Made by a program: the position numbers and the translations under genes. This document shows positions 4,112 through 25,033 of a stretch of 64,000 nucleotides of DNA, one piece after another. The notes below the pieces were generated by a model that had not been told where the DNA came from, searched no databases, and saw nothing but the letters and a program-made list of their open reading frames with translations. Numbering within the stretch: position 1 is the stretch's first letter; each line of letters starts with the position of its first letter. This stretch comes from Myxococcus xanthus (GTDB taxonomy: Bacteria; Myxococcota; Myxococcia; Myxococcales; Myxococcaceae). The stretch lies in assembly GCF_006402735.1 (NCBI RefSeq), contig NZ_CP017174.1, positions 1,553,001 to 1,617,000 of the forward strand, written 5' to 3'.

Positions 4112-6031
4112 CTACGGCGTGGGTGCGGACGCCGTCAGCCGCTTCAGTGCGTCCTTCGCATCCGAGTGGTCCGGCTGCAACTGCACGGCCATCTTGTAGG
4201 CGTCCCTTGCCTCATCGAGGCGCTTCGTCGCCTCCAGCAACTGCCCGAGTGCGTTGTGTGGCTCGGCGAAGTTCGGGTCCGCCTGCACGGCGTTGCGGAA
4301 GGACTTCTCCGCGCCCTTCGTGTTGCCCTGCTTGTACAGCGTGTGGCCCATGTACAGCAGGCCCAGCGAGTGGCGCGGGTCCACCGACAGCACGGACGTC
4401 AGCACCTTCTTCGCCTTCGCGCCGTCGCCGCCACGCAGGTAGATGAAGCCCAGCTCCGCGCGAGCCTCCAACTGCGCCGGGTCCTTCGCCACCACCGCCT
4501 CGAGCTCCGACACGGCCAGTTCCGGCCGCCCACGCCGCGAGTGGACGATGCCCAGCCGCGCCAGCGCCGCGGTGTCGGCCTCTTCGCCGTCCTTGGGCTT
4601 GAGCAGCCCCTCCGCCGCCACATAGTCGCCCATGGCCAGCAGCAGGTCCGCGAGCGCCAGCTTCGCGGCGCGATTGGCGGGGTCCTCGTCCAGGAGGGCC
4701 TTGTAGAGCGGCTGTGCCTTCGCGCCCACCCGCTTCTGCGCGTACACATCCGCGAGCGCCAGCCGGTTCTCCGGCGTGGGGGAGAGCTTCACACCCGCTT
4801 CGTACTCGGCGATGGCGCCATCCAAGTCACCCTTGGCGCGCAGGGCCTCGCCATAGGCGGCGCGGGCGCTCGCATCCTTCGGGAATGCGTCCACGGCCGT
4901 CTTCAGGGTGGCCACCGCTTCGTCCGCCTTGCCCAGGCTGAGCCACGCGCGAGCAAGTCCCTGGTACGCCTCCGTCGTCTTCTTCCCGTCCTCGGCGCTC
5001 TTCTCGATGGCCTTCTTGAAGGCCTCCACGGCCTGCTTCTTCTTGCCCTGCGTCAGGTACAGGTGGCCCAGTTGCGTGTACGGCCCGCTGGACCGCTGCG
5101 GCTCCAGCACCACGGCCTTTTCGAAGGACTTCAGGGCCCGGACGTTGTCACCGAGCTGGTAGTACGCCAGCCCCAGGTTGAAGTGCGCCTCGGCGAACTT
5201 CGGGTCCGCGGCGATGGCCTTGAGGAAGGCGTCGGTGGCCTTGCGCGGGTCGCCCTTCTCGTTGAACGCCACGCCCATGTTGTTGTGCGCGCTGGCGTGC
5301 TTGGGGTCGGCGGCGAGCGTGCGCTGGTACTCGGCGATGGCGCCGTCCAGGTCGTTCTCCCGCATGAGGAGCACGCCGAGGTTGTAGTGCGCCTCGGTGT
5401 CACCCAGCTTCTGCCGGGTGGCCTCGCGCAGCGTCTCCTTGGCCTCGCCGTTGAGGCCCTTCTCCGCCAGGGCCTTGCCCAGATTCACGCGGGCCACGTT
5501 GAGCTTCGCGTCCAGCTTCAGCGCCTCACGGTAGGCCTCGATGGCGTCGTCCGTGCGGCTGGCGCGCTGCAGGGCCTCGCCCAGGTTGAAGCGCAGCTCC
5601 GCGTCCTGGGGGGCCAGCTCCACCGCCACCGCGTACTGGCTGATGGCCACGTCGCGCTCGTCCAGTACGCGCGCCAGCAGGCCGCGCTCGGCCCGGAGGG
5701 TGGACTCCTCGGGGAAGGCGGCGATGGCCGTGTCCAGCACCGTGCGCGCCTGCTCCGGCTCACCGGACAGCCGCAGCGCGCGGGCCAGGGCCAGCTTCGG
5801 CGGAATGAGGTCCGGCTCCTGGGCCACCAGCTTCTTCAGGGGCGCCACGGCCTTCTTCGGCGTGTTGAGCGCGAGGAAGGCGGTGCCCAGGCGGTACAGG
5901 GCGTCCGCGTCGTCGGGGGACTCGGCCAACCGCGCGCTCTCCACGGCGGCGGTGCGCTCGAGCGTGGCCGTGTCGGGCTCGGCGGCCTGCGCGGTGAGGA
6001 GCTGGAGCACCAGGAAGCTGGCAGTCTTCAT
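4112..6031 (-). CDS. TPR protein, GltC/NfsC-like, last gene of envelope-machine operon
   Basis: 639 aa, with an N-terminal signal peptide (MKTASFLVLQLLTAQAAE) followed almost entirely by 34-residue TPR units, roughly fifteen (for example AHYNLGVLLMRENDLDGA, AEAHFNLGLAYYQLGDN). This predicts a periplasmic protein-interaction scaffold. The start ATG at 6029-6031 shares one base with the stop of the upstream lipoprotein gene (TAATG), so the two are coupled; a longer frame runs back into that gene and is not used. In Glt and Nfs machines a TPR protein (GltC/NfsC) works at the outer membrane with barrel and lipoprotein partners. The assignment rests on architecture and neighbours, not alignment. 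Confidence 0.85.
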   Translation of the reverse strand: MKTASFLVLQLLTAQAAEPDTATLERTAAVESARLAESPDDADALYRLGTAFLALNTPKKAVAPLKKLVAQEPDLIPPKLALARALRLSGEPEQARTVLDTAIAAFPEESTLRAERGLLARVLDERDVAISQYAVAVELAPQDAELRFNLGEALQRASRTDDAIEAYREALKLDAKLNVARVNLGKALAEKGLNGEAKETLREATRQKLGDTEAHYNLGVLLMRENDLDGAIAEYQRTLAADPKHASAHNNMGVAFNEKGDPRKATDAFLKAIAADPKFAEAHFNLGLAYYQLGDNVRALKSFEKAVVLEPQRSSGPYTQLGHLYLTQGKKKQAVEAFKKAIEKSAEDGKKTTEAYQGLARAWLSLGKADEAVATLKTAVDAFPKDASARAAYGEALRAKGDLDGAIAEYEAGVKLSPTPENRLALADVYAQKRVGAKAQPLYKALLDEDPANRAAKLALADLLLAMGDYVAAEGLLKPKDGEEADTAALARLGIVHSRRGRPELAVSELEAVVAKDPAQLEARAELGFIYLRGGDGAKAKKVLTSVLSVDPRHSLGLLYMGHTLYKQGNTKGAEKSFRNAVQADPNFAEPHNALGQLLEATKRLDEARDAYKMAVQLQPDHSDAKDALKRLTASAPTP

Positions 6032-6666
6032 TATAGGTTCTCCACGTAGGGACTCGCGCGCGCGTCGAAGGTCTTCTTCGCGAGCGCCGCCTTCTTCGCC
6101 TCCCACGCCTCCCGCGCCGTCTTCTCTTCCTTCTCGTCTCCAGCGAGCTCGGCGCGTTCTTCCTTCACCTCCGCCTTGCACTCGGAGACCTGCTCCTCGA
6201 ATTCCTTCTGGTCCAGCCGCTCGCTGCCCTCGACCTTCGCCTTTCGGGCGGCCTGCAGGCGGGCCAGCTCGAACTCGGCGAAGGCGCAGCGCAGCGCCAG
6301 CCGCTCCACGTCCCGCAGGCCCACGCTGAGCCGCTGCCGGGCGCGCAGGTACTCCACGCGGGCCTCGGCCTCGGCGATGGCCAGCTTCGCCACCTCGCGG
6401 GACACCTCGTCCGACGCGCGGTCCACTTCATCCTCCGCGGCTTCCTTGCGGGAGCGGGCGCGGCGGATGTTGTCGCGGGCGCGGCCAATCTCGTTGTCGG
6501 CCTCGTCCACCTTGTCGATGGCGAGCGCGAGGTTGTTCTCCGCCTCCAGCAGCTCGATGCGCGCCTCGTACGGGAGCTTCTTCTCCAGCGAGTCGGGCAC
6601 GCGCATGTTGTAGCTGGCGCCGCACGCGGAGAGCAGGGGGAGGGTGAGCAGGACAAAGCGCTTCAT
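6031..6666 (-). CDS. Coiled-coil lipoprotein of the envelope-machine operon
   Basis: 211 aa. Lipobox LLSAC with acylated Cys15 and Gly at +2, so outer-membrane sorting is expected. Residues about 35-205 are charged and almost wholly helical, with heptad-like EAENNLALAIDKVDEADNE and KEEKTAREAWEAKKA stretches indicating long coiled coils. The start overlaps the upstream stop (ATGA) and the stop overlaps the downstream TPR gene. It may bridge the outer membrane and periplasmic partners like the lipoproteins of Glt-type machines. No enzymatic motif is seen. Confidence 0.8.
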   Translation of the reverse strand: MKRFVLLTLPLLSACGASYNMRVPDSLEKKLPYEARIELLEAENNLALAIDKVDEADNEIGRARDNIRRARSRKEAAEDEVDRASDEVSREVAKLAIAEAEARVEYLRARQRLSVGLRDVERLALRCAFAEFELARLQAARKAKVEGSERLDQKEFEEQVSECKAEVKEERAELAGDEKEEKTAREAWEAKKAALAKKTFDARASPYVENL

Positions 6667-7163
6667 GGAACCGTCGCCTCGAAGCTTCCGAAGATGGTGC
6701 GCCCGGAATAGGTGTGGGTGCCGTTGACGAACGTGACGTGGAACTCGCCGGAGATGCGCTGGCCCTGCTGACTGGGAAGGGCCTTCACCTTCAGCCCACC
6801 CACCCGCAGCTCCGGGAAGGTCCGCGCCGGCTCATCCAGCACGTTGCGGCCAATGGCGCCGCGCTGGGCACCGTTGGCCAGGACTTCCGCCAGGTTGACG
6901 TCCAGCGAGCCGGTGTAGCCCTCCGGGAGCATGTCCTGCACCCGGGCGCTGACCTTCAGCACCGTGTTGGTGCCCGTGCCCTGCTGGGTGACGAAGTTCA
7001 CCGCCAGCTCACCTTCGGCCAGCTGCGCCTCCGCGCGGTCGTAGCGCAGGTCGAGCAGCGACGTCACGCTGCCCTCCAGCCGCCCGCCCTCGTCGCCACA
7101 GGCGCAGAGGGCGGCGGTGAGCAGGACGCCGAGCCACGATGCACGCGCGGGCCTCACTTGCAT
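6663..7163 (-). CDS. Small lipoprotein with a repeated family motif
   Basis: 166 aa from ATG 7161-7163 (a GTG at 7170-7172 would add three residues). Signal MQVRPARASWLGVLLTAALCAC, followed by a beta-rich domain. The mature start, RLEGSVTSLLDLRYDRAEAQ, resembles SLAGSVSELFPLEVSRVEVL in the lipoprotein at 32224-32796, and both end in a GxF/GTF-type beta segment, so they look like distant paralogues. It overlaps the TPR gene before it by 10 nt and the coiled-coil lipoprotein after it by 4 nt. Probable outer-membrane component; molecular role unknown. Confidence 0.78.
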   Translation of the reverse strand: MQVRPARASWLGVLLTAALCACGDEGGRLEGSVTSLLDLRYDRAEAQLAEGELAVNFVTQQGTGTNTVLKVSARVQDMLPEGYTGSLDVNLAEVLANGAQRGAIGRNVLDEPARTFPELRVGGLKVKALPSQQGQRISGEFHVTFVNGTHTYSGRTIFGSFEATVP

Positions 7164-10100
7164 GCCTTCCACCCGCCATCCACGTCGTTGCCGCCCAGCG
7201 AGGCCACGTCCTTGAGCACGGCCAGCTCGCGGCGGGCGCCGTCGACGTCACCGAAGCGGCAGCGCAGCGCGGCCAGGTTGAGGCGCGCCTTGCCGAAGGT
7301 GGGGTCGGAGTCCATGGCGCGGCCGTATGCCTCGCGCGCGCCCATGGCGTCACCCATGTGGAGCAGCGCCAGACCCAGCGCGGAGTGCGCCGAGGCCCGC
7401 GTGTCCTGCAGCTCCGTGACGCGGCCCAGGGTGAGCTGCGCCATGCCGTACTGGCGCGCGTCCAGGTAGGCCAGACCCAGCGCCTCCAGCGCCTCCGCGT
7501 TGAGCGTGCGCTCGGCCTTCTTGCGCAGCTCCTCCAGGGACGCCGGCTGCGTGGGCGTGCCCGGCTGCGGCACCGGCAGCGCCGCCGTCTCCGTGCGAGC
7601 GCGGCAGCCCACCACCGCGGCGCTGAAGACCTCCAGGGACTCGGCGCGGGACAAGCAGGCCTTGAACGCTTCGTCGGAGCGCGCCTTCAGCGGCGTCACC
7701 TGCTCCTTCACCGCGGCCCGGAACTGCTGCGCCTCCGCGGCGGACAGGCCGGCGGGAACGGCCGTGCCTTCCACCACGTCCGCGATGTGGCCGTACGCGA
7801 GCGCCAGCTTCCACAGCGAGGCCACCGCCCACTCGGCGTAGCCCAGCGACGCGGCCTGCGTGTAGATGCCCTCCATGCTCTGGAGCGCGGCGACCTTCTC
7901 CTCCACCTGGTCCGCGGGGAGGTCCCTGTAGCCACGGTAGAGGATTTCGCCCAGGTACCACAGGCCCTTCGCCGCCTCCTCGGTGCCGCCGTTGGGGCCC
8001 TGCACCGCGGTGGTGAGGGTGGCGATGAGCGCGTCGGCGGGCGCGGTGGGCGCCGTGGTGGCCTGCACCTCGGCCAGCACCGCCGCGGCGGCGGCGCTGT
8101 GGCGGTCCATCTTCAGCGCGGTCTCGGCCGCCGTCTTCGCGCGGGCGTAGTCCTTCTGCTTCAGCCGCGTCTCCGCCAGCATCACCAGGACTTCCGCCTT
8201 GCGCGCGCCGGCGATGTCGGCGGCGGCCTCCAGGTCACGCGCCGCCTCCTTGTGCTCGCCCAGCGCCATGCGCAGCCGCGCGCCGGCCAGCCAGCCGTCC
8301 ACGGCGGCGAAGTCGCCACCCAGCTTCTGGCCCACCTGTTCGAACCAGCCCGCCGCCTCGCCGAACGCCGCGGCCTCCGCCGCGTGCCGGCCCAGCGTCA
8401 GCAGTACGTCCGACAGGTACTGGCTCTTCGGGTAGTCCTGCACCAGCTTCGTGCCCAGCTCGCGCTGGGCCTGCATGTCACGCTTCTCGCGCGCCGCGGT
8501 GAACGCGCCGTAGAGCGCCTTCTCGCCGATGTCGGAGTTCTTGTTCTCGTCGGCGACCTTCACCAGACCCTGGATGACGTCGCCCGTCTCCTGGGCGCTC
8601 TGCAGGGCCAGCTCATCCAGCGCCTCGGCGCGGCTCTGGGTGAGAATCTTCTGCACGTCCGCGCGGAAGCTGGCCGGCAGCGGCGCGCCCAGCAGCTTCT
8701 TGCCCGTCTCATCCAGGCCCTTGAAGTCGTTGAGCTGCCGCAGGCTGTCCAGCGCCAGGTTGCCCGCGATGGGGGCTTCCTTGTGCTGCGGGTGGCTCAG
8801 CGCGAAGGCGGTGAACAGCTCCGCGGCCTTCGGGTACTCGCCGTCCTCGTAGTAGGCGCGGGCGATGTTGAACTTCACCACCAGGGCATTCTCACTGCGG
8901 GGGTAGCGCGACACGAAGTCGGCGCCCAGCAGCTTCATGGCCTGACGCGCGTCCGCCACCTCGAAGGCGTTGCGCGTCTGCGCCTCCTCCGGCTTGAGCG
9001 TGGAGAAGTGCGCCAGCAGCGCGGCGTTGAGGGCTTCCTCCTCACCCTTCGCGTCCTTGGCCTTCACATGGTAGCGGGCCAGTTCCTCGAACTGGCGCGC
9101 GGCCTCGGGGTACGCGTTGGCGGAGTACAGCGCGTCCGCGCGGTTCTTCATCATCGTGCGCACGTGCTGCTCGGGCCGGAAGAGGCCCAAGTAGGCCTGA
9201 TAGGCCTCCGCCGCGCTCACGTAGAGCGCCTTGTCGTTCTTCTTCTGCGCCTCCACGTGGAGGAGGGTGGAGAGGTCGCGCGCCATCTCCTCCAACTCCA
9301 CCAGGTGCTTCTTGCGCTCGGCCTCCGCCAGCTCGGGGTCCGTCTTGCTCTGCACCGCGGCGCGCACGAGGATTCTCAGGTCCTCGGCGTCCGGCAGCAC
9401 CTTGCCCTTGGAGGCCTTGATGGCGTCGTAGAGCTTCTGGCCGCGCTCCAGGTCCAGCTCCGGGTCGTGCTGAATCTCCATCAGCTTGCGCAGCGCGGGG
9501 ATGGCCCACTCGTACTGCTGCTTGATGAAGTAGCGGTTGCCCAGCTTGTCCAGCGCGAGCGCGTAGGTGGCGCGGCTGTCGCTGAGCTTCTCGAAGTAGT
9601 TGAGCGCGCCCTTGGGCGGCTTGGCCTCGGTGTAGCTGTAGACGAGGTCCAGCAGGGCCTCGCGCTTGACGTTGAGCGCCTTCTTCACGTCCACGCCGGG
9701 CAGCGGCGCGCTGGCGGCCGCGGCCTCGAAGAAGGTGACGGCCTCCGCGTGCTTGGCCTGATTCACGCGAATCCAGCCCATCTTGTAGCGGGCCAGGTCG
9801 TGCACCGGTGAGGGCGGGGCCTCCAGGATGGCCTGGTAGTGCTTCTCCGCCTCACCCAGGTCGGCCTTGTCGAAGAAGTGGTCGCCCAGAATCTGCTCCG
9901 CCTCCAGGCGCAGCGGACTGCCGGGGAACTTGCGCGTCAGGTCGCCGAGCGTCTTGAGCATCTCGTCGAACTGGCCCAGCTCGCGCTGCTCGTGCGCCAG
10001 GTAGAACGTCACCTGGTCGCCGTCCTTGAAGTCCGGGTACTCGCGCAGCAGCCGGTAGTACATCTGCACGGCCTTCTGCTTCAGCAGCCGCGTCTCCGGG

Positions 10101-10423
10101 GACACGATGGCGCCGCTCGCCCCCTCCGGCCGGGACTCGGCCTGGAGGTAGTACACGTAGCGGCTCTTCTCCACGTAGAGCTCGGCCAGCCGGAATTGGA
10201 GGTCCGGCAGGTAGGGCGCGTTGCGGCTCTTGGAGATGAGGCGCTCCGTCTCGCCGATGGCGCGGTCCACCTTGAAGATGTCGCGCTTGAGCTTGGCGAT
10301 GAGCTCGTCGCGCTCCTTGGCCTTGGAGACAATCGGGTTGATGCCCGGGCCGGGACGTCCAGCGCCACCCGGGGCGGCCGCGAGCATCGCGGCGGCAATC
10401 AGGCCCGTCAGGTGGCCGGTCAT
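7154..10423 (-). CDS. Large TPR protein, GltD/AgmU- or NfsD-like
   Basis: 1089 aa. Short N-terminal signal-like segment (MTGHLTGLIAAAMLAAAPGG), then helical TPR and Sel1-like repeats over most of the length, for example RFRLAELYVEK-type, ALVVKFNIARAYYEDGEYPKA and a classical TPR pair near the C-terminus (AHSALGLALLHMGDAMGAREA, KARLNLAALRCRFGDVDGA). Size, export signal and position beside a second exported TPR protein match AgmU/GltD (gliding) and NfsD (spore coat), known Myxococcus envelope-machine proteins. The start ATG overlaps the upstream TPR gene stop by 4 nt (10420-10423). Probably a periplasmic scaffold; which paralogue it is cannot be settled here. Confidence 0.85.
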   Translation of the reverse strand: MTGHLTGLIAAAMLAAAPGGAGRPGPGINPIVSKAKERDELIAKLKRDIFKVDRAIGETERLISKSRNAPYLPDLQFRLAELYVEKSRYVYYLQAESRPEGASGAIVSPETRLLKQKAVQMYYRLLREYPDFKDGDQVTFYLAHEQRELGQFDEMLKTLGDLTRKFPGSPLRLEAEQILGDHFFDKADLGEAEKHYQAILEAPPSPVHDLARYKMGWIRVNQAKHAEAVTFFEAAAASAPLPGVDVKKALNVKREALLDLVYSYTEAKPPKGALNYFEKLSDSRATYALALDKLGNRYFIKQQYEWAIPALRKLMEIQHDPELDLERGQKLYDAIKASKGKVLPDAEDLRILVRAAVQSKTDPELAEAERKKHLVELEEMARDLSTLLHVEAQKKNDKALYVSAAEAYQAYLGLFRPEQHVRTMMKNRADALYSANAYPEAARQFEELARYHVKAKDAKGEEEALNAALLAHFSTLKPEEAQTRNAFEVADARQAMKLLGADFVSRYPRSENALVVKFNIARAYYEDGEYPKAAELFTAFALSHPQHKEAPIAGNLALDSLRQLNDFKGLDETGKKLLGAPLPASFRADVQKILTQSRAEALDELALQSAQETGDVIQGLVKVADENKNSDIGEKALYGAFTAAREKRDMQAQRELGTKLVQDYPKSQYLSDVLLTLGRHAAEAAAFGEAAGWFEQVGQKLGGDFAAVDGWLAGARLRMALGEHKEAARDLEAAADIAGARKAEVLVMLAETRLKQKDYARAKTAAETALKMDRHSAAAAAVLAEVQATTAPTAPADALIATLTTAVQGPNGGTEEAAKGLWYLGEILYRGYRDLPADQVEEKVAALQSMEGIYTQAASLGYAEWAVASLWKLALAYGHIADVVEGTAVPAGLSAAEAQQFRAAVKEQVTPLKARSDEAFKACLSRAESLEVFSAAVVGCRARTETAALPVPQPGTPTQPASLEELRKKAERTLNAEALEALGLAYLDARQYGMAQLTLGRVTELQDTRASAHSALGLALLHMGDAMGAREAYGRAMDSDPTFGKARLNLAALRCRFGDVDGARRELAVLKDVASLGGNDVDGGWKACK

Positions 10424-12030
10424 GGCGTCTCCTCGATGCAGCGGCTGTCGATGCGGACCCGGTAGGAGCGCAGCTCGTCGTTCCAGTACTCGCCGTCGAA
10501 ACGGTAGGCCGTTTGCGTGGGCGACAGAATCTGCTCGTCCTCCGGCGCGACTATCCGCGCGCCCTTCTTCACGCGCTCGTACAGCTTCAGGCCCACTTCG
10601 TACTCCATCAGGCGCACCTGCTCGGCGGCGCGCAGCAGCGTGTCCGCTTCCTGGCGGACGGCCTCGGCCAGCCGCGCGTCATGGACGCGGACCGCCTCGG
10701 CGCGGGACAAGTCATAGAGCTTCGTCAGGTGCGAGAAGAGCCGGTCGCCGAAGCTGCCGGCGTAGCGGCCCAGCCGCTCGCCCTCCAGCTCCAACGTCTC
10801 CAGGAAGCGCGCGGCGCGCTGGGTGCTTCCGTGGGCGTTGGCGGCGCGGCGCAGGCGCACGTCCTGGGTGAGGTCCTCGCGGCTGCGCACCGCCTCCAGC
10901 GAGTCCGCGAAGCGCCGCGTCAGCTCCTTGGCGGCGCGCTTGGCCGGCAGGTAGTGGCACAAGTCACGGTAGATGAGCGCGCGCAGCAGGTACTTGTCCG
11001 GCAGGAACTCGTCGCGGAAGGACGGCGCGTCCAGCGTGGTGAGGATGCCCAGCGACGCGCGCAGCTCGCCCAGCTTGTAGCGGGTCCACGCCTCCTCCAG
11101 GTAGAGGCTGGCGCGGCCCGGGTCCAGCTCAGGCAGCTTCACGCGGTCATACGCCTCCAGCGCGCCCTGGAAGTCCTTGCGCTCGTAGCGCAGGCGCGCC
11201 ACCGCCAGCGCCGCCTCGTTGCGGGCCTCGCGGGTGAGCTTCTCGTCCTCGGACAGCGCCAGGAAGTCGGAGATGATTTCGTCCGACGGCTCCTTCACCT
11301 GCTTCAGGCGGGTGACGAGCAGCGCGAACTTCGCGCGGCTGGCCTCGGCGCTCGTCTCCGACAGCTTGGCGAAGTGGGTGTTGGCCCAGCGCTCGTTGCC
11401 CACGCGCAGGTCCACCAGGCCCTGCTGGTAGTGCGCATAGGCGCCCGTGTCTTCCGGGAGGAAGCCCAGGTCCAGCGCGCCGAACACCTGCTCGTCAATC
11501 ATCACCTCGTCGTGCGGCCGATCCGTCAGCGCCTTGAGCGTGTCCAGGGCGCGGGGCAGCACGTTGGGGTTGGAGCGCTCGCGCGCGATGCGGGCCAGGT
11601 ACGAGGCCCCCGCGTGCGTCAGCCCCAGGTCGATGAGGCTGCGCGCGAGGAAGTACTGGCCCCAGGCGTAGTTCTCGTCCGTCTTGGGCGCGGCCTGAAG
11701 CCAGGCGTGGAGCGGACCGGCGGCGTCGCGCGGCTTGCCGTCGAAGTAGTCCTTGAGCGCCTTGTCGAAGACGGCCGGGTCCACCTTCTGCGGCGCGGGC
11801 GGCGGGGCTTCCGCGGCCGCCGCGGGGGCGTTCGCGGCGGGCTTGGCGGCGTCGGGCGCATCGGCCTTGGCGTCGGCGGGGGCCGGAGCCTTTCCTCCCG
11901 CCGGAGGCGTGCCCTGCGCGGGAGCGGGGGACGTGGGCTGCGCGGCGGCCGGAGACTGCGCGGCGGCGGGCGCTGGAGACACGAGGAGCGCGGCGCTGGT
12001 GAGCGCGGCGATGAGCGAGCGGGAGGTCAT
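10420..12030 (-). CDS. Exported TPR-type protein, GltE/AglT- or NfsE-like
   Basis: 536 aa. Signal peptide MTSRSLIAALTSAALLVSPAPAAAQ, then an Ala/Pro-rich linker to about residue 80, then helical repeats (LKDYFDGKPRDAAGPLHAWL, LRYERKDFQGALEAYDRV, EEAWTRYKLGELRASLG). The C-terminal part has charged helices and ends YRVRIDSRCIEETP. Length and architecture agree with AglT/GltE. It overlaps both neighbours by 4 nt, so it is co-translated with the larger TPR protein and the barrel protein. Predicted periplasmic. Confidence 0.83.
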   Translation of the reverse strand: MTSRSLIAALTSAALLVSPAPAAAQSPAAAQPTSPAPAQGTPPAGGKAPAPADAKADAPDAAKPAANAPAAAAEAPPPAPQKVDPAVFDKALKDYFDGKPRDAAGPLHAWLQAAPKTDENYAWGQYFLARSLIDLGLTHAGASYLARIARERSNPNVLPRALDTLKALTDRPHDEVMIDEQVFGALDLGFLPEDTGAYAHYQQGLVDLRVGNERWANTHFAKLSETSAEASRAKFALLVTRLKQVKEPSDEIISDFLALSEDEKLTREARNEAALAVARLRYERKDFQGALEAYDRVKLPELDPGRASLYLEEAWTRYKLGELRASLGILTTLDAPSFRDEFLPDKYLLRALIYRDLCHYLPAKRAAKELTRRFADSLEAVRSREDLTQDVRLRRAANAHGSTQRAARFLETLELEGERLGRYAGSFGDRLFSHLTKLYDLSRAEAVRVHDARLAEAVRQEADTLLRAAEQVRLMEYEVGLKLYERVKKGARIVAPEDEQILSPTQTAYRFDGEYWNDELRSYRVRIDSRCIEETP

Positions 12031-12662
12031 TCCGTGGCGCCGAAGTTGAACGCGGTTCCGAACTGGATGAGAGGCACCTGGATGACGCGCGTGGCGCCCG
12101 TGAAGACGGTGTTGTTCGTCACGTCCAGGCGCAGCGACAGCGTCTTGCCGGTGAAGAGGCGCAGGCCGAGCCCCACGTTGACGGCGGGCCGGAAGCCGCC
12201 GTCGCGGTCGAGCTTCACCACCGTGCCGCCGCCCAGCAGGAAGGCCTCGATGTGCAGCACCGACTCATTGAGGAAGGCCATCTTCCCGTAGAGCGGGCTC
12301 CAGATGAGGTCCGAGCCCACCATCCACTGGACCTGGTCCTGGAAGGCCGCGGCGTTGGGGGACGTGTTGAAGTCGCGCTCGAGCTGGCGGCGCAGGCTCG
12401 TCTGGAGGTTGTAGCTGTACGTGCCGCGCCCGACCTGCCACGCGAAGGTGTCAGTGAAGTGGTACGTGTACCCGACGGTGCCCACCAGGCCCTTGTAGTA
12501 GGCGTTGGCCGGCAGCACGCCGACGCCGAGCAGCAGCTCGTGGTGCATCCGGAATCGCCGCTCCTGGATGGCGGACACTGCGCCGGGATTCTCCAGCGCC
12601 TCGGCCTGCGCGCGGACGAGTCCGGGCGTCAGCAGCAAGAGGATGAGCAGGGCGTATCGCAC
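12027..12662 (-). CDS. Outer-membrane beta-barrel protein of the envelope machine (GltH/NfsH-like)
   Basis: 211 aa from GTG 12660-12662. Signal peptide VRYALLILLLLTPGLVRAQA, then alternating hydrophobic/polar strands (VGTVGYTYHFTDTFAWQVGRG, LSLRLDVTNNTVF, IQFGTAFNFGATE) typical of a small outer-membrane barrel. The GTG is preferred because it begins the signal peptide, with aggaag about 8 nt upstream; the longer open frame overlaps the TonB-domain gene. It ends 4 nt inside the TPR gene. Small barrels are standard partners of the FHA/TonB and TPR proteins in Glt and Nfs clusters; the letter assignment is tentative. Confidence 0.78.
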   Translation of the reverse strand: MRYALLILLLLTPGLVRAQAEALENPGAVSAIQERRFRMHHELLLGVGVLPANAYYKGLVGTVGYTYHFTDTFAWQVGRGTYSYNLQTSLRRQLERDFNTSPNAAAFQDQVQWMVGSDLIWSPLYGKMAFLNESVLHIEAFLLGGGTVVKLDRDGGFRPAVNVGLGLRLFTGKTLSLRLDVTNNTVFTGATRVIQVPLIQFGTAFNFGATE

Positions 12663-12714
12663 GGTGGGGGCTTCCTGGGGGAGGACGGGAACGGACGCGC
12701 GGACTGAGGCCACG

Positions 12715-15003
12715 TCAGTAGCCGACCGAGTTGAAGAGGAACGGGTAGGTGATGATGACGACGCCACCCTTGGGGGAGGGGAACGTCCACGACTTCAGCT
12801 TGGAGAGGATGCAGGACTCGACGGAGGCATTGCGCAACGTGGAGGACTTCGTCTTGGCGGCCACCACGCGGCCGTTCGTGCCGATGGTCCACTCCAGCAC
12901 CACCTTGCCCGCAAGACCCGGGTCCTTGAGCAGCGCGCGCTCATAGCAACCGTGCACCTCGTGCAGGTTGCTGTTGATGACGCGCGCCACCGCCTCTCGG
13001 TCCACCGTGCCCTGCGTGGAGGCGATGCTGCGGGCCGTGGCGCGGGTGACGGTGCCGCCCACCTTGCCCTTGCCCACGCCGCCCGCGCCCAGCGCGCCGA
13101 TGCCGCCGCCGCCCTTGCCGCGCAAGAGCTCCGCGCCCAGCGTGGCGCCGCCGCCCTTGCCGCCGCCGCCCAACCCGAAGGTGCCCAGGCCGGCGTTGGC
13201 GATGGGCGCCTTCCCGATGAGGCCGGACAGCTTGTAGTTGGAGTTCTTCACGTTCTTGCTGCCGGGGCCACTGCCGAGCTTGTCCACGGCGGCGAGCAAA
13301 TCGTTGGTGGCGGGCCCCGCGGCGGACAGCTTGGCCAGCGCCTTGAGCGCCTTGTTCTGCGGCGGCGCGGCGGCGGCCACCGCCTGCTCGGGCTGCTTCG
13401 GTGGCGGCGGCGTCTTTTCCACCGGCTTGGGCGGCGCCTTCTCCGCCACCTTCTCCTTGGTGGGCTTCTTCGCCTGCTCCTTGATGGCCTCCAGCTTCTT
13501 CTTGGCCTCTTCCTTCTTCTTCGGCTCGGGCGCGATGAGACGCAGCGCCACGGGCGGCAGGCTCTTCTGCTGGAAGTCCGCCACCTCTTGCCGGTGCGGC
13601 TTCATGACCAGGAACGCTGCCATGGCGGAGGCGAAGAGGCCCAGGCACGTCAGCGTCAGCCAGGGCAGGCCCTTGAGCGGGTTGACGAAGACGCGCGCGG
13701 GCTTGGGCGCGGCGTAGGCCACCAGGGACATCTGCCCCTGCGTCAGGCGCGCGGCGGTGCCCTCGCGCAGCGTGAGGAAGCGGCGGCTGCCGTCGGACTC
13801 CAGGGCCGCGCCGGTGACAGGGGTGAAGCGGCCGTCACCGCTGCTCTTCTCCACGTCGGTGCCCGGCGGCACGAAGAGGCGGAAGGCGTTGTTGAGCGGC
13901 TCGGCCAGCGTGAAGGGCGCGCCCTCCGGCAGCGTGAAGCCCCACAGGGGCATGGCCCCCTCGAGGTCCAGCGAGGCCTGCACCGGCTTCTTCTTGTCCG
14001 GCGCGAAGCGGCGCGCGTCGCGGCGGACGGCGCCCCAGTACAGCTCCAGGTAGAGCTGCGCGGTGCCCTTGCCGGGCGCGATGCGCGGCGCATGCGTGGG
14101 CCGCGTCAGCGTGCGCTGCTCCTCCAGCAGCGGCCCCGTGGGCTCCGGGAGCGGGTCGAGGGCGAGGTCCGCCATCAGCTCGTCCGCGAACTGCATGCCC
14201 GGGTTGGCCACGGGGGCCGGCTCTGGCGCGGCCCTGCGGCGGACCGAGGGCACCGTGCTCGCCGGTACGCCCACGGGAGCCTGCTGCGCTCCAGGCACGG
14301 GGATGAGGGCGGGCTGTGCCTGCGGGAGGCCATGTGCGTGGTCGCCAGCGGCGCGGACGGAGGCCTGCTGCGCCACGGGGGGAACCACGGCCACCGCGGG
14401 CACGGGTTGCGCCGGCGTGGGGAAGGCCACCTGCGTCGCCACGTGGACGGGAGGAACCGCGGCCACCTGCTGTGGCACGCGCGCAGCGGGCATGGTGGCG
14501 GACAGCGGCGGGACGCCCGTGGCCGGACGGAGCTGCCGCGCGGGCGCGGCGGAGGGCGGAGGGGCCGCGGGCGCGGCGGCCTGCGGCGGCGGCGCGGCGA
14601 ACGGCGTGGGCGCCTGGGCCGCGCCGAGCAGCGCGGCGACCTCGGGCGGCGGCTGCGGCTTGGCCTCTTGCGGCTTCTGCGACAGCACGCGCGTCTTCAG
14701 GATGAAGGGGCCACAGAGGACCTCATCCACCGGCCGGATTTCACAAGCGGAGACGCGGTGGCCGTTGACGAAGAGCCCCGTGCTGGAGCCCGCGTCCTGC
14801 ACCGCCGCGCGGCCGTTCTGGAAGTAGAGCAGGGCGTGCCGCGGCTCCACGGACGGGTCATCCAGGCGCAGGTCGGAGGATGGATCCGAGCCGAGCGCAT
14901 AGGTGCCCGGGACGAACACCTCGGTGCCCACGAGGAGACCGTCGCGGAGGATGACGACTTGCAGGACGCTGGGCTGGCCGCTCAACGGTGACGCTCCATT
15001 CAA
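12715..15003 (-). CDS. FHA-TM-TonB protein with AgmX/PglI C-terminal domain (GltG/NfsG-like)
   Basis: 762 aa. Residues about 20-110 form an FHA phosphothreonine-binding domain (GSDPSSDLRL, RHALLYF, STGLFVNGHRV). A long Ala/Pro linker follows, a single membrane span lies at about 440-463 (LTLTCLGLFASAMAAFLVM), then a Lys/Glu/Pro-rich periplasmic stretch, Gly-rich repeats, and a TonB-like C-terminal domain with the paired cysteines HEVHGCYERAL and SVESCILSKL. This is the PglI/GltG architecture: cytoplasmic sensor, inner-membrane anchor, periplasm-spanning force arm. TTG 15003 is the only in-frame start before the FHA domain, and no strong ribosome-binding site precedes it. It lies 21 nt after the small exported gene. 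Confidence 0.88.
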   Translation of the reverse strand: MNGASPLSGQPSVLQVVILRDGLLVGTEVFVPGTYALGSDPSSDLRLDDPSVEPRHALLYFQNGRAAVQDAGSSTGLFVNGHRVSACEIRPVDEVLCGPFILKTRVLSQKPQEAKPQPPPEVAALLGAAQAPTPFAAPPPQAAAPAAPPPSAAPARQLRPATGVPPLSATMPAARVPQQVAAVPPVHVATQVAFPTPAQPVPAVAVVPPVAQQASVRAAGDHAHGLPQAQPALIPVPGAQQAPVGVPASTVPSVRRRAAPEPAPVANPGMQFADELMADLALDPLPEPTGPLLEEQRTLTRPTHAPRIAPGKGTAQLYLELYWGAVRRDARRFAPDKKKPVQASLDLEGAMPLWGFTLPEGAPFTLAEPLNNAFRLFVPPGTDVEKSSGDGRFTPVTGAALESDGSRRFLTLREGTAARLTQGQMSLVAYAAPKPARVFVNPLKGLPWLTLTCLGLFASAMAAFLVMKPHRQEVADFQQKSLPPVALRLIAPEPKKKEEAKKKLEAIKEQAKKPTKEKVAEKAPPKPVEKTPPPPKQPEQAVAAAAPPQNKALKALAKLSAAGPATNDLLAAVDKLGSGPGSKNVKNSNYKLSGLIGKAPIANAGLGTFGLGGGGKGGGATLGAELLRGKGGGGIGALGAGGVGKGKVGGTVTRATARSIASTQGTVDREAVARVINSNLHEVHGCYERALLKDPGLAGKVVLEWTIGTNGRVVAAKTKSSTLRNASVESCILSKLKSWTFPSPKGGVVIITYPFLFNSVGY

Positions 15004-15024
15004 GGGCTGGGGGGCGGTGCTGCC

Positions 15025-15426
15025 CTAGGGGTCGTACACCGTGGAGAGCGTTTCGGAGCGGAAGCTCTCCCGCTCGCGGATCATCGACCGCGTCTTCAGT
15101 TCCTTGCGGTCATAGAGGTACACGGCTCCGGACTTGTTCGTCTGTCCCTGGATGAGCCGGTCATCGAAGTCGATGCGCGCCGGGCCTCGCTGCGGCAGCG
15201 CGCTGGAGGCGCCCGTGGCCGCATCGCCCGTCACGGGGTCCACTACGGCGGAGCCCTTGGTCTCGATTTTCGGCGGCGTCTTGGAGGCCGCCTTCTTGGC
15301 GGGCTTGGACTTCGCCTGGCGCGAGGTACGGCCACGGTTCTGGGCCCAGGCTTCGGCCGGAGCCGCCAGCGTACCGACGCCGAGGAGCTGGGCGACAGCC
15401 ATGCAGAGGAGGAAGCGTCGCATCAT
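15025..15426 (-). CDS. Small exported protein, first gene of envelope-machine operon (GltF-like?)
   Basis: 133 aa from ATG 15424-15426. Signal peptide MMRRFLLCMAVAQLLGVGTLAAPAEAWA, then a Lys/Ser-rich linker and a short conserved-looking C-terminal part (RIDFDDRLIQGQTNKSGAVY, LYDRKELKTRSMIRERESFR). Its size and position next to the FHA/TonB gene recall GltF/NfsF, small proteins of unknown role in Glt and Nfs clusters. No Shine-Dalgarno is visible; a TTGACA-type promoter sits so close that the transcript may start at or near the ATG. Confidence 0.72.
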   Translation of the reverse strand: MMRRFLLCMAVAQLLGVGTLAAPAEAWAQNRGRTSRQAKSKPAKKAASKTPPKIETKGSAVVDPVTGDAATGASSALPQRGPARIDFDDRLIQGQTNKSGAVYLYDRKELKTRSMIRERESFRSETLSTVYDP

Positions 15427-15432
15427 CAACAG

Positions 15433-15461
15433 GTTAAGCGATGCGTGTACCGAGCTGTCAA
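15433..15461 (-). promoter_or_regulatory. Candidate sigma-70-type promoter for the envelope-machine operon
   Basis: On the minus strand a perfect TTGACA lies at 15461-15456, then 17 nt, then CTTAAC at 15438-15433 as a weak -10. The ATG begins 6 nt after the -10, so the transcript would be leaderless, which fits the lack of a ribosome-binding site. The rest of 15462-15690, between this and the divergent cytochrome gene, shows no further clear motif. Confidence 0.4.
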
Positions 15462-15690
15462 CGCACACTCCGGCGCGCGCATGTGACGCTGTGCGCGCCC
15501 AGGTGTAGAGGGCACTCCACCCCATGTGGGGCGCGTCCACCACGGTGAGGCGGGATGTTGCCGGGACGCTGGAAAGATGGCGTGCGGTGCTGCGTTTCGA
15601 GCTCGCCGGGCTGATGGGTAACCGAGACATGAATTCATCCCCGCACGGCGGGGGATGGGGGATGCTCCCGCGCGGATGCTACGGGCGCGG

Positions 15691-17988
15691 ATGAGCAGGA
15701 ACCGCAGGCGTGCGGTGCTGGCGGTGCTGAGCGTGACGATGGTCGCCACGGGCGTGGTGGTGCATCGGCTCCGTGAAACAGCCGCACCCGCTCCGGTATC
15801 CGCCGCCGCGCGTCCTGTCTTGTCGTCCGTGGGGCCTCGGCTCACGAGCAATGAGACATCTCAGCCGCTCTCCATCCAGGGGGAACGGCTGGTGCCGGGG
15901 CTGTCGCTGGCGCTGGGCCCTCCGCTGTCGCTGCGCCTGCCGTTGACGGTGGTGGATGACACGCACGCCTATGCGCGGCTGCCCGCGGGGCTCCGTCTGC
16001 CGGAGGATGCGCCGCAAGCGGTGGTGGAGGCGCGGCTCGTCGGGGCGGACGGCACCGAGTCGGAGGGCTCGGGGCGGCTCACGGTGGTGAATGACGCGGC
16101 CTTCACCGACCTGACGGTGATGGTGCCCGCGCCGGATGGACGGACGCTCTTCATCGCTTCGCCGCCCACCGACACGGTGTTCGCGCTGGAGGTCGACACC
16201 GGGCGCGTGTCGCGGCTGGCCACGGGAGACGGTCCCTCCGCGCTGGCGGCCTGGACGGATTCGGACGGCCGGCCCTGGCTGGGCGTAACGCACCGGTATC
16301 AGCCGGAGCTGTGGCTGTACGCGCTGGACGCGCTGGACGCCGCGCCTCGGGTGCTGCCCGCGCCGCTGGGGGCCGAAGGGCTGACCGTGGATGGCCGGGC
16401 CGGCGTGGCCTTCGTGGCCGAGCGTGTGCGGGACCAGGTGCAGGCGCTGTCACTGGCGGACGGGCGCGTGCGGTGGTCGGCGCCGGTGGACCCCAACCCC
16501 CGGGCGCTGGCGCGGTGGAAGGACCTGCTGGCGGTGGGCAGCCTCCAGACGGGGCAGTTGGAGTTGCTGCGGCAGGAGGATGGGGCGCTCGTCGCCGCGG
16601 TGGCGCCGGGCCCAGGGGTGTCCATTGTCGGGGGCAACACCGAGCGCTTCCGCGAGCAGGTGATGGGCGGCAAGGCGCCGCGCTTCCTGGTGGCGAGCGA
16701 GCGGCTGGGGCACGTCTTCATGTCGAGCCTGGGGCCGAACGTGGGGCCCAATCCCCAGCGCATGGAGGTGAGCGCGAACAGCGGTGTGTCGGTGGTGGAG
16801 CCCTCGCGGGGCACCTACGTGCGGCACCGGGGCTTCGGCGCGGGCGGCACGGAGGGGTTGGCGCTGGACGACGGCGCGGGACTTCTCTACGCGGCGGACG
16901 TGGGACTGGGGCTCGTGCGGGTGCTGGATGCGCGAGCGCTGGTGTCGGGGGACGCGCCCGCCCGGCGCGCGGTGCTCCAGGAGGTGACGGTGGCGCCGCC
17001 TGAAGGCACGCCGCGCATCCGTCCGCCGGAGGACTTCGGGGTCCGGGGCAGGGCGGGCGAGGCGCTCCATTCGGGCCCCAGCGCGCTGGCGCTGTCACCT
17101 GACGCGCGCACGCTGTATGTGCTGAACCGCTTCACCCGGACGGTGGCGGTGGTGGACGTGCGCGAGGCGAAGGCGGGCAAGACGCGGGTGGTGCGTCAGC
17201 TTCCGGTGGAGACATCTCGCGCGCAGGCCAAGCGCCGGCTGGGGCAGGTCCTCTACTACGCGGACCTGGGGCGCACGGGCATCACCTGTGACGGCTGCCA
17301 CATCGAGGGCCATACGGGAGGCATCTTCTACGAGAAGACGCAGCCCAACCGCATCTACCGCTCCACGACGCTGCGAGGCAGCCGCGACACGCCGCCGTAC
17401 TTCACTCCCGCCAGCCACATCAGCCTCGTGGACACGGTGCGCTTCGTGGGCGCGCGCAACCGCTTCCGCAACCCGGACCCGTCGCCGTCGGAGGTGGAGG
17501 CGCTGGCCCTCTTCAACGCGCTCATCGTCACCCCGCCCAACCCCCATCGCGGCGAGGATGGTGCCCCGCTGGAGACGGTGGCGTTGCCAGACGGAAGGGT
17601 GGGGCGGCCGGCGCGAGGCCGCGCGCTGTTCGAGGGCAAGGGCGCCTGTGCGACGTGTCACCCGGCGCCGCTCTATACGTTGGACCAGGACCTGGCCACG
17701 CGGGGCCGGTACCTCGAGGTCGGCACGCCGGTGGCGCTGCCGCTGAGACTGGAGCAACAGGACCTGGTGCCCGGCGCGGCGACGCCTTCCCTGGTAGGGG
17801 CGTGGGACGTGTGGCCCCTGCTGACGAGCGCCACCGCCGGTTACGGGGTGAAGGACAACCGGCTCGTGGTGGAGACGCGCTTCGCGCTGCGCGCGCTGCT
17901 GGAGACGTCCGGGCCCCAGCATGGCGATGCCCGCGCGCTCACGCCGGAAGAGTGCGATGACCTGTTGGCGTTCCTGCTCACGCTGTAG
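15691..17988 (+). CDS. Beta-propeller/diheme c-type cytochrome (MauG/cytochrome peroxidase-like)
   Basis: 765 aa from ATG 15691; in-frame ATGs at 15655 and 15676 are possible and none has a clear ribosome-binding site. An N-terminal membrane anchor or uncleaved signal (RRRAVLAVLSVTMVATGVVV) leads to an extracytoplasmic YVTN-like beta-propeller (DGRTLFIASPPTDTVFALEV, SPDARTLYVLNRFTRTVAVV). The C-terminal third carries two haem c sites: CDGCH at 17287-17301 and CATCH at 17647-17661. Together this suggests periplasmic redox chemistry or electron transfer, resembling the MauG/diheme peroxidase group fused to a propeller. A second protein of the same design is at 41021-43030. It diverges from the envelope-machine operon. 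Confidence 0.82.
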   Translation: MSRNRRRAVLAVLSVTMVATGVVVHRLRETAAPAPVSAAARPVLSSVGPRLTSNETSQPLSIQGERLVPGLSLALGPPLSLRLPLTVVDDTHAYARLPAGLRLPEDAPQAVVEARLVGADGTESEGSGRLTVVNDAAFTDLTVMVPAPDGRTLFIASPPTDTVFALEVDTGRVSRLATGDGPSALAAWTDSDGRPWLGVTHRYQPELWLYALDALDAAPRVLPAPLGAEGLTVDGRAGVAFVAERVRDQVQALSLADGRVRWSAPVDPNPRALARWKDLLAVGSLQTGQLELLRQEDGALVAAVAPGPGVSIVGGNTERFREQVMGGKAPRFLVASERLGHVFMSSLGPNVGPNPQRMEVSANSGVSVVEPSRGTYVRHRGFGAGGTEGLALDDGAGLLYAADVGLGLVRVLDARALVSGDAPARRAVLQEVTVAPPEGTPRIRPPEDFGVRGRAGEALHSGPSALALSPDARTLYVLNRFTRTVAVVDVREAKAGKTRVVRQLPVETSRAQAKRRLGQVLYYADLGRTGITCDGCHIEGHTGGIFYEKTQPNRIYRSTTLRGSRDTPPYFTPASHISLVDTVRFVGARNRFRNPDPSPSEVEALALFNALIVTPPNPHRGEDGAPLETVALPDGRVGRPARGRALFEGKGACATCHPAPLYTLDQDLATRGRYLEVGTPVALPLRLEQQDLVPGAATPSLVGAWDVWPLLTSATAGYGVKDNRLVVETRFALRALLETSGPQHGDARALTPEECDDLLAFLLTL

Positions 17989-18010
17989 GCCGTCACCTGG
18001 CTGCCCATAC

Positions 18011-18052
18011 CCGGAGGACACAGGGATTCACGGCGCCTCTGGGTGTCTCCGG
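18011..18052 (+). terminator. Putative hairpin terminator after the cytochrome gene
   Basis: The arm ccggaggacac (18011-18021) pairs with gtgtctccgg (18043-18052) with one bulged G and a 21-nt loop, 22 nt after the cytochrome stop. No T-tract. It separates the cytochrome from the lipoprotein gene starting at 18170; nothing else stands out in this 181-nt gap. Confidence 0.35.
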
Positions 18053-18169
18053 CCCGTTCCACGGGGGGCCGAATTGTCGGTCCGTGCTGTGCCACTTGAG
18101 CGGTGCTTACAGGCTTCGTGTCACCAGCGCTTGCGTTGTCACCGGGGCCTAAGGTGTAGAATCGGACTG

Positions 18170-19759
18170 ATGCGCGCCCTCACGCGGTCCGTCTGGCTCA
18201 TTCCCGTGCTGTTGCTGTCGTGTTCCGACGCGGGCCTCTACGCGCTCAATGGCCGGGGCCCTGGCGGGAAGGACCGCGCCAGCTTCGCCGGTACCGTCTG
18301 CGTTCCGCTCGCGGGCGGCGAGGCCTTTCCCACGAAGGTGATTTTCGCGCTCCAGGGCGGCGAAGGCGTCGAGCGCGAGGTGGTGGGTTACGCGACCGAG
18401 GCGCTGTCCACGCTCTCCAGTCGCTTCTCCGGTCCCTTCGTCCACTTCGGCCTCGTCGCGTACCACACGGTGGCGACGGGCCTGCTGGGCAGCTTCTCGG
18501 ATGCGTCCGACTTCCAGGCCGCTCTGCCGCGCTACGCCACCTACCAGGAGTCCGGCCCGGTGAGCGTCCGCGCCGCCCTGCGGCTGGCCAAGACGCTGCT
18601 GTCAGGCGACATGCAGACGTCCTGCCGCGGCGAGGTCGCCCGCACGCGCTACGTCATCGTCGTCGTGGTGCGCAGCCAGGACACCAGCTGCGCCAACCCG
18701 GCCTTCAACGTGGGGCTCGACTCGCGTTGCAGCGCGCTGGGCAACACGTCGGCGTGCAGCCAGTGTGAGCTCACCGCCGTCACCGGTGAAATCAAGGCGC
18801 TGGCCTCGCAGTTCAGCGCGGGCGAAGTGGTGGTGCAGCCCATCTACGTGCGCGGCGAGACGCCAGACCCCATCACCCGCCAGCACGTGGCCGCCATCGC
18901 CAACGCTGGCGGCACCGAGCCGCTGGAGACGGACGCGGCGGGCCTGTCGGGCACCCTCACCAACATCCAGTACGCCGCGCGGACCAACACCCTCAAGCTC
19001 AAGCGCTTCTTCGCCTACAACCGCAACGTGGTGGTACGCGCCGGGCAGGTGCTCGTCGACAGCGACGGGGACGGCCTTCCCGACGAGGATGAGGTGCTGA
19101 TGGGCACCGACCCCCTGCGCCAGGACACGGACCAGGACGGGTTGATGGACGGTGTCGAGGTTCGCATGGGCCTGGACCCGCTCCAGCCCGACGTCATCAA
19201 CGGCTGCAACGTGTCCCTGGACGAGGACGGCGACCGGCTCAACACCTGCGAGGAGCGCGTGCTGGGCACCAACGCCTGCATCGGCGACACGGATGGGGAT
19301 GCGCTCCCGGACCTGGTGGAGGCGCTGGCGATGACGAACCCGCTCATCCCCGAGGACCTGCTCGACACGGACCGCGACGGCATCACCAACGTGGCGGAGG
19401 TGGAGGCGCACGGAGACCCGCTCAGCGCCGACCTCGACTTCCACCGCGAGCGCGGCTACGGCTACGAGCTGGTGGAGACCACGCCCACCGTGGATGGCCG
19501 CAGCTGCTACCAGGTCCGCGTGGAGAACGTCACCGTCGTCCCCACCCGCGAGCGGCCACACCCCTTCATTCCGGGCGAAGTCATCAAGGCGGGCACCAAC
19601 GAGGTGTACCTCTACCTCCAGGCCGGCCGGGACAATGATCCACGGGGCGCGGGCATCGGCTCGCTCCTCATCCAGGAAATCCAATACAGCGAAGAGGGGG
19701 GCCGCCTGCCGGCGGGCATCATCCCCCTGGAGCCCGACACCTTCATCCCGGGGACCTGA
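18170..19759 (+). CDS. VWA/TSP3-family lipoprotein with a degenerate metal site
   Basis: 529 aa. Signal with lipobox LLSC (Cys18; Ser at +2). Residues about 40-270 align by eye with the VWA domain of the two downstream paralogues, but the MIDAS positions read Q62, G64, G66 where both paralogues have D-x-S-x-S, so metal-dependent ligand binding is probably lost. Calcium-binding TSP3-like repeats follow (DSDGDGLPDEDEV, DTDQDGLMDGVEV, DTDGDALPDLVEA, DTDRDGITNVAEV). A C-terminal domain shared with the paralogues begins RGYGYELVE and contains RSCYQVRVENV. Predicted surface or outer-membrane protein; perhaps structural rather than adhesive. Confidence 0.83.
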   Translation: MRALTRSVWLIPVLLLSCSDAGLYALNGRGPGGKDRASFAGTVCVPLAGGEAFPTKVIFALQGGEGVEREVVGYATEALSTLSSRFSGPFVHFGLVAYHTVATGLLGSFSDASDFQAALPRYATYQESGPVSVRAALRLAKTLLSGDMQTSCRGEVARTRYVIVVVVRSQDTSCANPAFNVGLDSRCSALGNTSACSQCELTAVTGEIKALASQFSAGEVVVQPIYVRGETPDPITRQHVAAIANAGGTEPLETDAAGLSGTLTNIQYAARTNTLKLKRFFAYNRNVVVRAGQVLVDSDGDGLPDEDEVLMGTDPLRQDTDQDGLMDGVEVRMGLDPLQPDVINGCNVSLDEDGDRLNTCEERVLGTNACIGDTDGDALPDLVEALAMTNPLIPEDLLDTDRDGITNVAEVEAHGDPLSADLDFHRERGYGYELVETTPTVDGRSCYQVRVENVTVVPTRERPHPFIPGEVIKAGTNEVYLYLQAGRDNDPRGAGIGSLLIQEIQYSEEGGRLPAGIIPLEPDTFIPGT

Positions 19760-25022: not shown

Positions 25023-25033
25023 GAACCGACGCC

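Follow-up and report, generated by a model that had tools for sequence, protein, structure and literature searches.

A Glt/Nfs-type gene cluster of Myxococcus xanthus, most likely G5, and its likely link to the adjacent Mts adhesins

Background

What does Myxococcus xanthus do with a Glt/Nfs-type trans-envelope gene cluster that has no motor genes of its own, and is that cluster already known? The question is raised by a 64,000-nucleotide stretch of the genome (the window; C1:1553001-1617000 of a genome that is one 9.3-Mb contig), in which eight genes, all on the minus strand, lie at 4112-15426. They are transcribed in the order g5F, g5G, a GltA/GltB-type (A/B-type) barrel gene, g5C, g5D, a lipoprotein gene (LP), a coiled-coil lipoprotein gene (ccLP) and g5E (Table 1). 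Comparative analysis suggests, with somewhat better than even confidence, that the cluster encodes a trans-envelope machine of the Glt/Nfs type, most probably the paralog already described as G5, and that this machine displays or pulls on the adhesins encoded by the adjacent mts operon, a function that we infer.

Four gltD-bearing clusters have been described in M. xanthus: G1, G3 (nfs), G4, and G5 (Luciano et al. 2011, PMC3169522). The gltD homolog of G5 is MXAN_1327, and the function of G5 was given as unknown in that description. Neither mts nor a lost motor is mentioned in the portions of that paper used here.

Identity of the cluster and its place among paralogs

Four GltC-type loci were found in this genome. 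The positions of eight glt, nfs, agl, and cgl loci were collinear with their MXAN numbers (r = 0.9989), the number used for CglB being the one we take it to have. On the basis of this collinearity, the cluster is most likely G5 of M. xanthus, the MXAN_1327 locus.

Two proteins of the cluster, D and C, were placed in phylogenetic trees, and in both trees G5, G4, Glt, and Nfs formed four clades (SH-aLRT, the Shimodaira-Hasegawa-like approximate likelihood ratio test, 98-100; 100 for the G5 clade). As judged from these sequences, the cluster is a paralog apart from Glt, Nfs, and G4. One-to-one orthology with GltA-K or NfsA-H, which an earlier note made from this DNA alone had named as a result that would overturn its reading, was rejected: D and C have a clade of their own, not one-to-one with Glt or Nfs, and NfsH was unmatched. 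That note had proposed that the machine might be a little-studied paralog with a function of its own. The separate clade agrees with this proposal (SH-aLRT 100 in the D and C trees), but the machine has probably already been described, as G5. The genome of a class-level relative (G001; three-digit G numbers denote genomes) contained Glt, G4, and G5 types, so these paralogs are old.

Co-occurrence of G5 and mts

Divergent from the cluster is an operon on the plus strand (15655-27409) in which the MtsC and MtsD models scored far above their cut-offs, identifying it as the mts locus, which is said to have been known as a cohesion locus since the work of Zhang et al. in 2007. For the MYXO-CTERM protein of mts, roles in cell-cell cohesion, S-motility, and development have been described (PMC11980579).

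By the models used, G5 and mts-type genes were found together or not at all in a class-level sample of 58 genomes: 40 contained both, 18 neither, and none only one. MtsD scored above cut-off in 37 of the 58, and G5 was found in all 37, in 36 by a G5-type GltC match and in G020 through g5F and g5G, which adjoin mts at the end of a contig. Outside these 37, G001, G004, and G048 contained G5 and mts-type VWA/TSP3 genes. The absence of G5 from the 18 genomes is based on the GltC model, which matches g5C weakly (approximately 40-64 bits, mostly over residues 312-428), and five of the 18 (G017, G033, G037, G054, and G057) had weak matches to the MtsD model (E 1e-4 to 1e-8).

MtsD and g5C were within 25 kb of each other in 28 of 36 genomes, far apart on the same contig in two (66 kb in G044, 116 kb in G038), and on different contigs in six, one of which (G029) looks truly unlinked. 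Since both are present even in such genomes, the pair is kept also where it is unlinked (G038, G044, and probably G029). All eight G5 genes were found in 14 of 24 named loci, and their order was the same wherever it was visible; in the other ten, the locus ran off the contig or the flank, or one of the genes was missed by the caller. Variants consisted of insertions between v1 and v2 (Table 1) in some loci, an extra open reading frame (ORF) in L049, and an uncalled g5F in L033, and one locus (L048) had no mts within its 10-kb flank. In 20 order- and phylum-level genomes with MtsC whose surroundings were read, G5 was in the stretch in eight and not in 12. The genes of relatives were called with a simple ORF caller, which gave no usable calls for L218/L219 and missed R, F, and G in L213.

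No papers linking mts with G5 or any other Glt-type machine were found in the literature collection searched. What is new here is the genomic context of G5, that is, its adjacency to mts, the co-occurrence of the two, and the motor genes of relatives; the cluster itself is most likely already known.

Motor genes at the G5/mts locus in deeper relatives

No motor gene was found in the G5 cluster of this genome. In eight other genomes (G001, G048, G062, G069, G075, G084, G087, and G093), Agl-type motor genes shared a contig with G5 and with MtsC or VWA/TSP3 genes. The set was R-Q-S in each, except that only Q-S was called in G084. R-Q-S immediately preceded g5F in three of them: the order in G001, all on one strand, was VWA/TSP3 protein, one further gene, R, Q, S, F, G, barrel, C, D, and that in G069 and G087 was MtsC, R, Q, S, F, G, two barrels, C, D, ccLP, E. 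The motor came after E in G062 and also, past one unrelated gene, in G075, where the G gene followed the motor. It was at the far end of mts in G048, and beside MtsC and G5 in G093 (R-Q-S) and G084. In G004 a motor was beside a VWA/TSP3 gene on another contig. Some deeper G5 loci also encoded an extra protein with a GltG/GltJ-like tail (L112:3200-4546, L130:6541-8265, and L206).

Eight G5/mts-linked R proteins, one of them from a ninth genome, formed a single clade (support 100/98) separate from the two motors of this genome, M1 (AglRQS; 97/91) and M2 (MXAN_3003-3005; 100/99). Approximately unbiased tests rejected forcing the G5-linked R proteins together with AglR (p 8e-85) or with the M2 protein (p 0.002). 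The trees were built with 40 of 47 candidate rows, then with 35 of those 40 and five new ones, and then, as a quick tree, with all 52. In the 52-row tree the G5-linked clade had support 98, the Agl-type clade (support 85) included none of the rows dropped earlier, and the groupings were unchanged; G029_C123 and G004_C505 were long branches of unsure place. Low-scoring PF01618 matches (G050 C47, G037 C1:1778828, G011 C3, and G032 C126) and most ExbB-like matches above 100 bits were left out of the trees, and two of the matches left out (G001 C36 and G017 1298k) contained no AglR-like ORF. In this genome there were eight PF01618 matches; all were placed in the tree, and M1 and M2 were the sole Agl-type ones, which rules out a third Agl-type motor elsewhere in the genome as far as PF01618 shows.

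Because relatives keep R-Q-S in the same locus, the lack of a motor here seems to reflect a loss specific to this lineage. In the C tree, a single change (support 97) separated loci with a motor from those without, which is most simply read as a single loss that preceded G029, G121, and the Myxococcus family. For this comparison G004 and G084 were labelled as having a motor, although that of G004 is on another contig and only Q-S was called in G084, and a duplicate row (L049) was omitted.

Candidate motors and the G-protein histidine

M2 and G4 are an Agl-type motor and a Glt-type paralog present in the same genome as G5. M2 grouped with two G4-linked motors (94/87), whereas the G5-linked motors formed a third clade. 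Across 18 genomes, an M2-type motor and G4 were both found in 12 (in five of these G4 was recognized from the GltC-match pattern alone) and neither in four (G007 and G048, and with less certainty G011 and G037, where low-scoring PF01618 matches were not placed in trees), and two, G050 (M2 and G4) and G041 (G4), were counted as unresolved. M2 was rejected as the obvious motor of G5, as it follows G4 and not G5. The Agl-type motors seen thus fall into three lineages with likely partners: M1 with Glt and Nfs, M2 with G4, and the third with G5/mts.

Other features were seen at G4 loci. G4 starts beside an MglA-like small GTPase and an MglB-like Roadblock protein at L171:10068-10652 and L171:10688-11164 (the pair was scanned), and the same pattern was seen by eye in L117-L119, L128, L177, and L180. 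These MglA/MglB names are in part our presumption, and we take the pair to be a polarity switch beside a Glt-type machine. Near G4 of this genome is a Poly_export/SLBB protein (L055:6134-6745), which hints at a polysaccharide role for G4. In a Glt/Nfs-type cluster of G033 (L123), a 1575-aa protein matched both GltD and GltC and is possibly a fusion.

AglR has been reported to bind GltG and NfsG in two-hybrid assays (PMC3169522, PMC3858216), and M2 is described as not needed for motility or sporulation and as not binding NfsG or GltG (PMC3858216). Since M2 goes with G4, M1 is left as the candidate, and AglRQS, already in use by both Glt and Nfs, is the most probable replacement motor of G5 in Myxococcus.

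TonB has a histidine in its transmembrane helix. An intramembrane histidine was present in six of the seven motor-linked g5G proteins and in five rows of the G protein of G4 (G4G). It was absent from all 15 g5G rows of the motor-less clade (two of them identical and two with incomplete flanks) and from all four GltG/NfsG rows (two of each). Attention turned to the histidine only once the first motor tree had been built, and the pattern is post hoc. The dedicated motor appears to have been lost in Myxococcus together with the intramembrane histidine of g5G.

Components of the cluster and the mts operon

The translations of the cluster were scanned with Pfam and NCBIfam models, and the Glt, Nfs, and G4 proteins of this genome were searched with profiles built from the G5 orthologs. 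As the earlier note had stated, most of the eight genes overlap by 1-10 nt: there were overlaps of 1, 4, 4, 4, and 10 nt at five of the seven junctions, and gaps of 21 nt (F/G) and 52 nt (G/barrel) at the others.

Table 1. Features of the G5 cluster and the adjacent mts operon (positions in the window)
Feature	Position	Strand	Description	Matches and remarks
g5F	15025..15426	-	Small exported protein, GltF/CglF family	NF033764 CglF 33.7 bits (below cut-off 90)
g5G	12715..15003	-	FHA, transmembrane helix, proline-rich region, AgmX/PglI (TonB-like) C-terminus	Pfam FHA match; no histidine in the transmembrane helix
A/B-type barrel	12027..12662	-	GltA/GltB-type outer-membrane beta-barrel	TIGR04565 112.6 bits (cut-off 60)
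g5C	10420..12030	-	Exported GltC-type periplasmic protein	NF033756 90.9 bits (cut-off 450)
g5D	7154..10423	-	Exported TPR protein, GltD type	Profile match to GltD, 178 bits
LP	6663..7163	-	Lipoprotein	
ccLP	6031..6666	-	Coiled-coil lipoprotein	Present in 14 named loci with all eight genes
g5E	4112..6031	-	GltE-like exported TPR protein without a lipobox	NF033758 98.3 bits (below cut-off 225)
Divergent intergenic region	15427..15654		228 bp	Separates g5F from the mts operon
v1	15655..17988	+	Beta-propeller-like protein	Two CxxCH heme motifs, at residues 545 and 665
v2	18170..19759	+	Candidate surface lipoprotein	VWA-fold domain (no DxSxS) followed by TSP3 repeats
v3 (MtsC)	19931..21262	+	TSP3 protein with MYXO-CTERM	NF047638 605 bits (cut-off 350)
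v4 (MtsD)	21298..23277	+	VWA (DxSxS) and TSP3 lipoprotein	NF047639 1351 bits (cut-off 800)
v5	23220..25022	+	MtsD-like lipoprotein, DxSxS and TSP3 repeats	NF047639 149 bits, partial
v6	25019..27409	+	Large lipoprotein, last mts gene	Downstream of v5 in L122, L127, L166, L172, and L204

The relatedness to Glt/Nfs core parts that had been noticed was confirmed, with homologs of C, D, G, the A/B-type barrel and, weakly, F. The g5G protein, a candidate inner-membrane transducer, has the FHA domain and AgmX/PglI C-terminus that had been read from it (Pfam FHA; NF033768, myxo_SS_tail). It scored 212.9 bits against NF033760 GltG (cut-off 650) and 118.7 bits against NF033768 (cut-off 40), and its profile matched NfsG (134 bits) and GltG (89 bits). 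This GltG-like protein matched its counterparts in Myxococcus sp. CA023 (96% identity in the best segment) and M. xanthus AM003 (94%). The g5F profile matched GltF at 21 bits and NfsF at 18 bits.

Several labels had to be changed. The small barrel is a barrel, but not of the H type first assigned: its profile matched GltB (64 bits), GltA (59 bits), NfsA (41 bits), and NfsB (34 bits), and not GltH, which is called short in this genome (163 aa), or NfsH at E up to 1, so a GltH-type barrel was rejected. The E and C labels were exchanged, as g5C is GltC-like (profile match to GltC, 68 bits) and g5E GltE-like. Two of the three proteins that had been called exported TPR proteins are TPR proteins by Pfam; the third, g5C, is a GltC relative to which no Pfam TPR family matched. 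The assignment of g5E is ambiguous because of its TPR repeats: general TPR models outscored NF033758, and its profile matched GltI (87 bits), GltE (82 bits), and G4E (78 bits). With the labels corrected, the order F-G-A/B-C-D-(LP-ccLP)-E is that of nfsA-G (PMC3858216) rotated so that F-G comes first, with two insertions; the earlier note had seen no obvious match to nfsA-H or the glt clusters. By family models and profiles, no relatives of GltH, GltI, GltJ, or GltK were recognized in the cluster. The reported lack of a motor, GltI, and GltJ thus holds for the cluster; M1, M2, and a GltI/GltJ pair are elsewhere in the genome.

The LP profile matched none of the Glt, Nfs, and G4 proteins of this genome, and the ccLP profile had no significant match among them. 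The predicted fold of LP was beta-rich (predicted local distance difference test score, pLDDT, 86) and matched no PDB chain with E under 0.001. A paralog of LP (27.8% identity) is encoded at 32224-32796 (+), preceded by a 437-aa protein (30914-32227, +) without a Pfam or NCBIfam match, and LP-like genes with a neighbor of approximately 400-500 aa were also found near MtsC in G066, G073, G077, and G094.

In the mts operon, the DxSxS motif was found in all 14 MtsD orthologs and all 10 v5 orthologs. MtsD matched VWA_2 above cut-off, and phmmer found no relative of it in the PDB at E up to 0.01. Matches of v1 to PQQ_2, YVTN-type, and cytochrome models were weak and below cut-off, and v6 had no family match in the Pfam and NCBIfam scans. 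The window also encodes a GMC oxidoreductase (28444-30096, -) and a gluconate-2-dehydrogenase subunit-3 protein (30093-30671, -). In G051, G062, G066, G069, and G075, and for the GMC protein alone in G048, relatives of this pair were within or adjacent to the mts or mts/G5 locus, and the two proteins may belong to the mts/G5 system.

Proposed function and alternatives

The genomic context makes G5 the likely envelope machine of the Mts adhesins. In such a machine, g5G in the inner membrane would take force from a proton-driven motor, the periplasmic g5F, g5C, g5D, and g5E would pass it on to the outer membrane, and there the A/B-type barrel and the two lipoproteins would receive it and hold or shift the VWA/TSP3 lipoproteins v2, MtsD, and v5, together with MtsC, at the surface. 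The dedicated motor, apparently lost in Myxococcus, may have been replaced there by borrowed AglRQS. Glt has been described as carrying the VWA adhesin CglB in gliding (PMC12288465, PMC13104615). G5 resembles Glt with AglRQS and CglB in its C, D, F, G, and A/B-type barrel homologs and in having a VWA surface lipoprotein partner, and differs in its separate clade, in the lack of recognized H, I, J, K, or motor genes, and in two lipoproteins of its own. It resembles Nfs in its rotated gene order, its motorless cluster, and a g5G closest by score to NfsG, and differs in its separate clade, in lacking H, and in being linked to adhesins instead of sporulation.

Several observations weigh against a machine for the Mts adhesins. 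The main one comes from published work, in which a polar mutation in the gltD of G5, MXAN_1327, is reported to have caused no appreciable change in motility (PMC3169522). As mts is described as mattering for S-motility, G5 cannot be needed for every Mts function. In 12 of the 20 deeper genomes mts-type genes were without G5 in the stretch, some of these being short contigs or badly called, and in G001 LP, ccLP, and E were not recognized beside D. There was no clear sequence homology between CglB and the Mts VWA proteins (best E 0.0065), which makes the CglB comparison only an analogy, and v2 lacks DxSxS. The histidine pattern also had exceptions, a motor-linked g5G without it (G048) and a g5G with it (G074) for which no motor was seen on its 18.7-kb contig.

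Alternatively, G5 may be a static assembly, export, or surface-presentation device for the Mts lipoproteins and MtsC, motorless in Myxococcus. The cluster has no motor, and the absence of both the dedicated motor and the transmembrane histidine in the same clade fits lost energization; yet GltG and NfsG also lack the histidine and are reported to bind AglR (PMC3169522, PMC3858216), and the eight genes have stayed together in 14 named loci. We consider a static device unlikely, though not negligible. Drive by M2 is less likely still. It would give a partner to an Agl-type motor that is reportedly dispensable for motility and sporulation and does not bind NfsG or GltG (PMC3858216), and M2 is found in all seven placed G5 genomes without a motor at G5 (this one, G020, G023, G029, G032, G041, and G051). 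However, M2 joins the G4-linked motors in the tree, M2 and G4 occur without a G5 match in G013, G017, G033, and G053, G5 is present in G048, in which no M2 or G4 was found, and the transmembrane histidine is in G4G and not in the g5G of Myxococcus.

A role of G5 in moving or packing a surface polysaccharide, on the model of Nfs and the spore coat, with mts adjacent for other reasons, is rather improbable, slightly more so than drive by M2. The Nfs precedent (PMC3858216) and the true homology of the G5 proteins speak for it, but the recurring partners are VWA/TSP3 surface proteins, no polysaccharide gene was recognized beside G5 (though no scan for these families was made of the genes flanking G5 in relatives), and the Poly_export protein adjoins G4 instead. 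A second gliding machine, which homology to Glt would allow, is very improbable: the polar G5 gltD mutant is described as moving normally and glt mutants as not compensated by G5 (PMC3169522), and relatives of GltH, GltI, GltJ, and GltK were not recognized in the cluster.

MXAN_1327 has also been listed among upregulated Tad-like pilus genes in a transcriptome paper (PMC10196010). Given its assignment as the gltD of G5 by Luciano et al., the Tad-like label may be a mislabel, and the listing may hint at induction in coculture.

Conclusions

It is possible, although we rate it a little short of even, that the Myxococcota carry a third kind of machine next to those for gliding and for winding the spore coat, one for motor-driven cell-cell adhesion, with an Agl-type proton motor of a separate clade, the G5 core, and VWA/TSP3 Mts adhesins all encoded at one place. 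The motor would have been lost in the Myxococcus lineage and the transducer rewired to AglRQS, so that one motor would serve gliding, the spore coat, and cohesion. If G5 does act on the Mts adhesins, a Glt-type machine that had no function in the 2011 description would gain a testable job and be joined to a cohesion locus, and the design by which force is passed through the envelope would also act on cell-cell adhesion.

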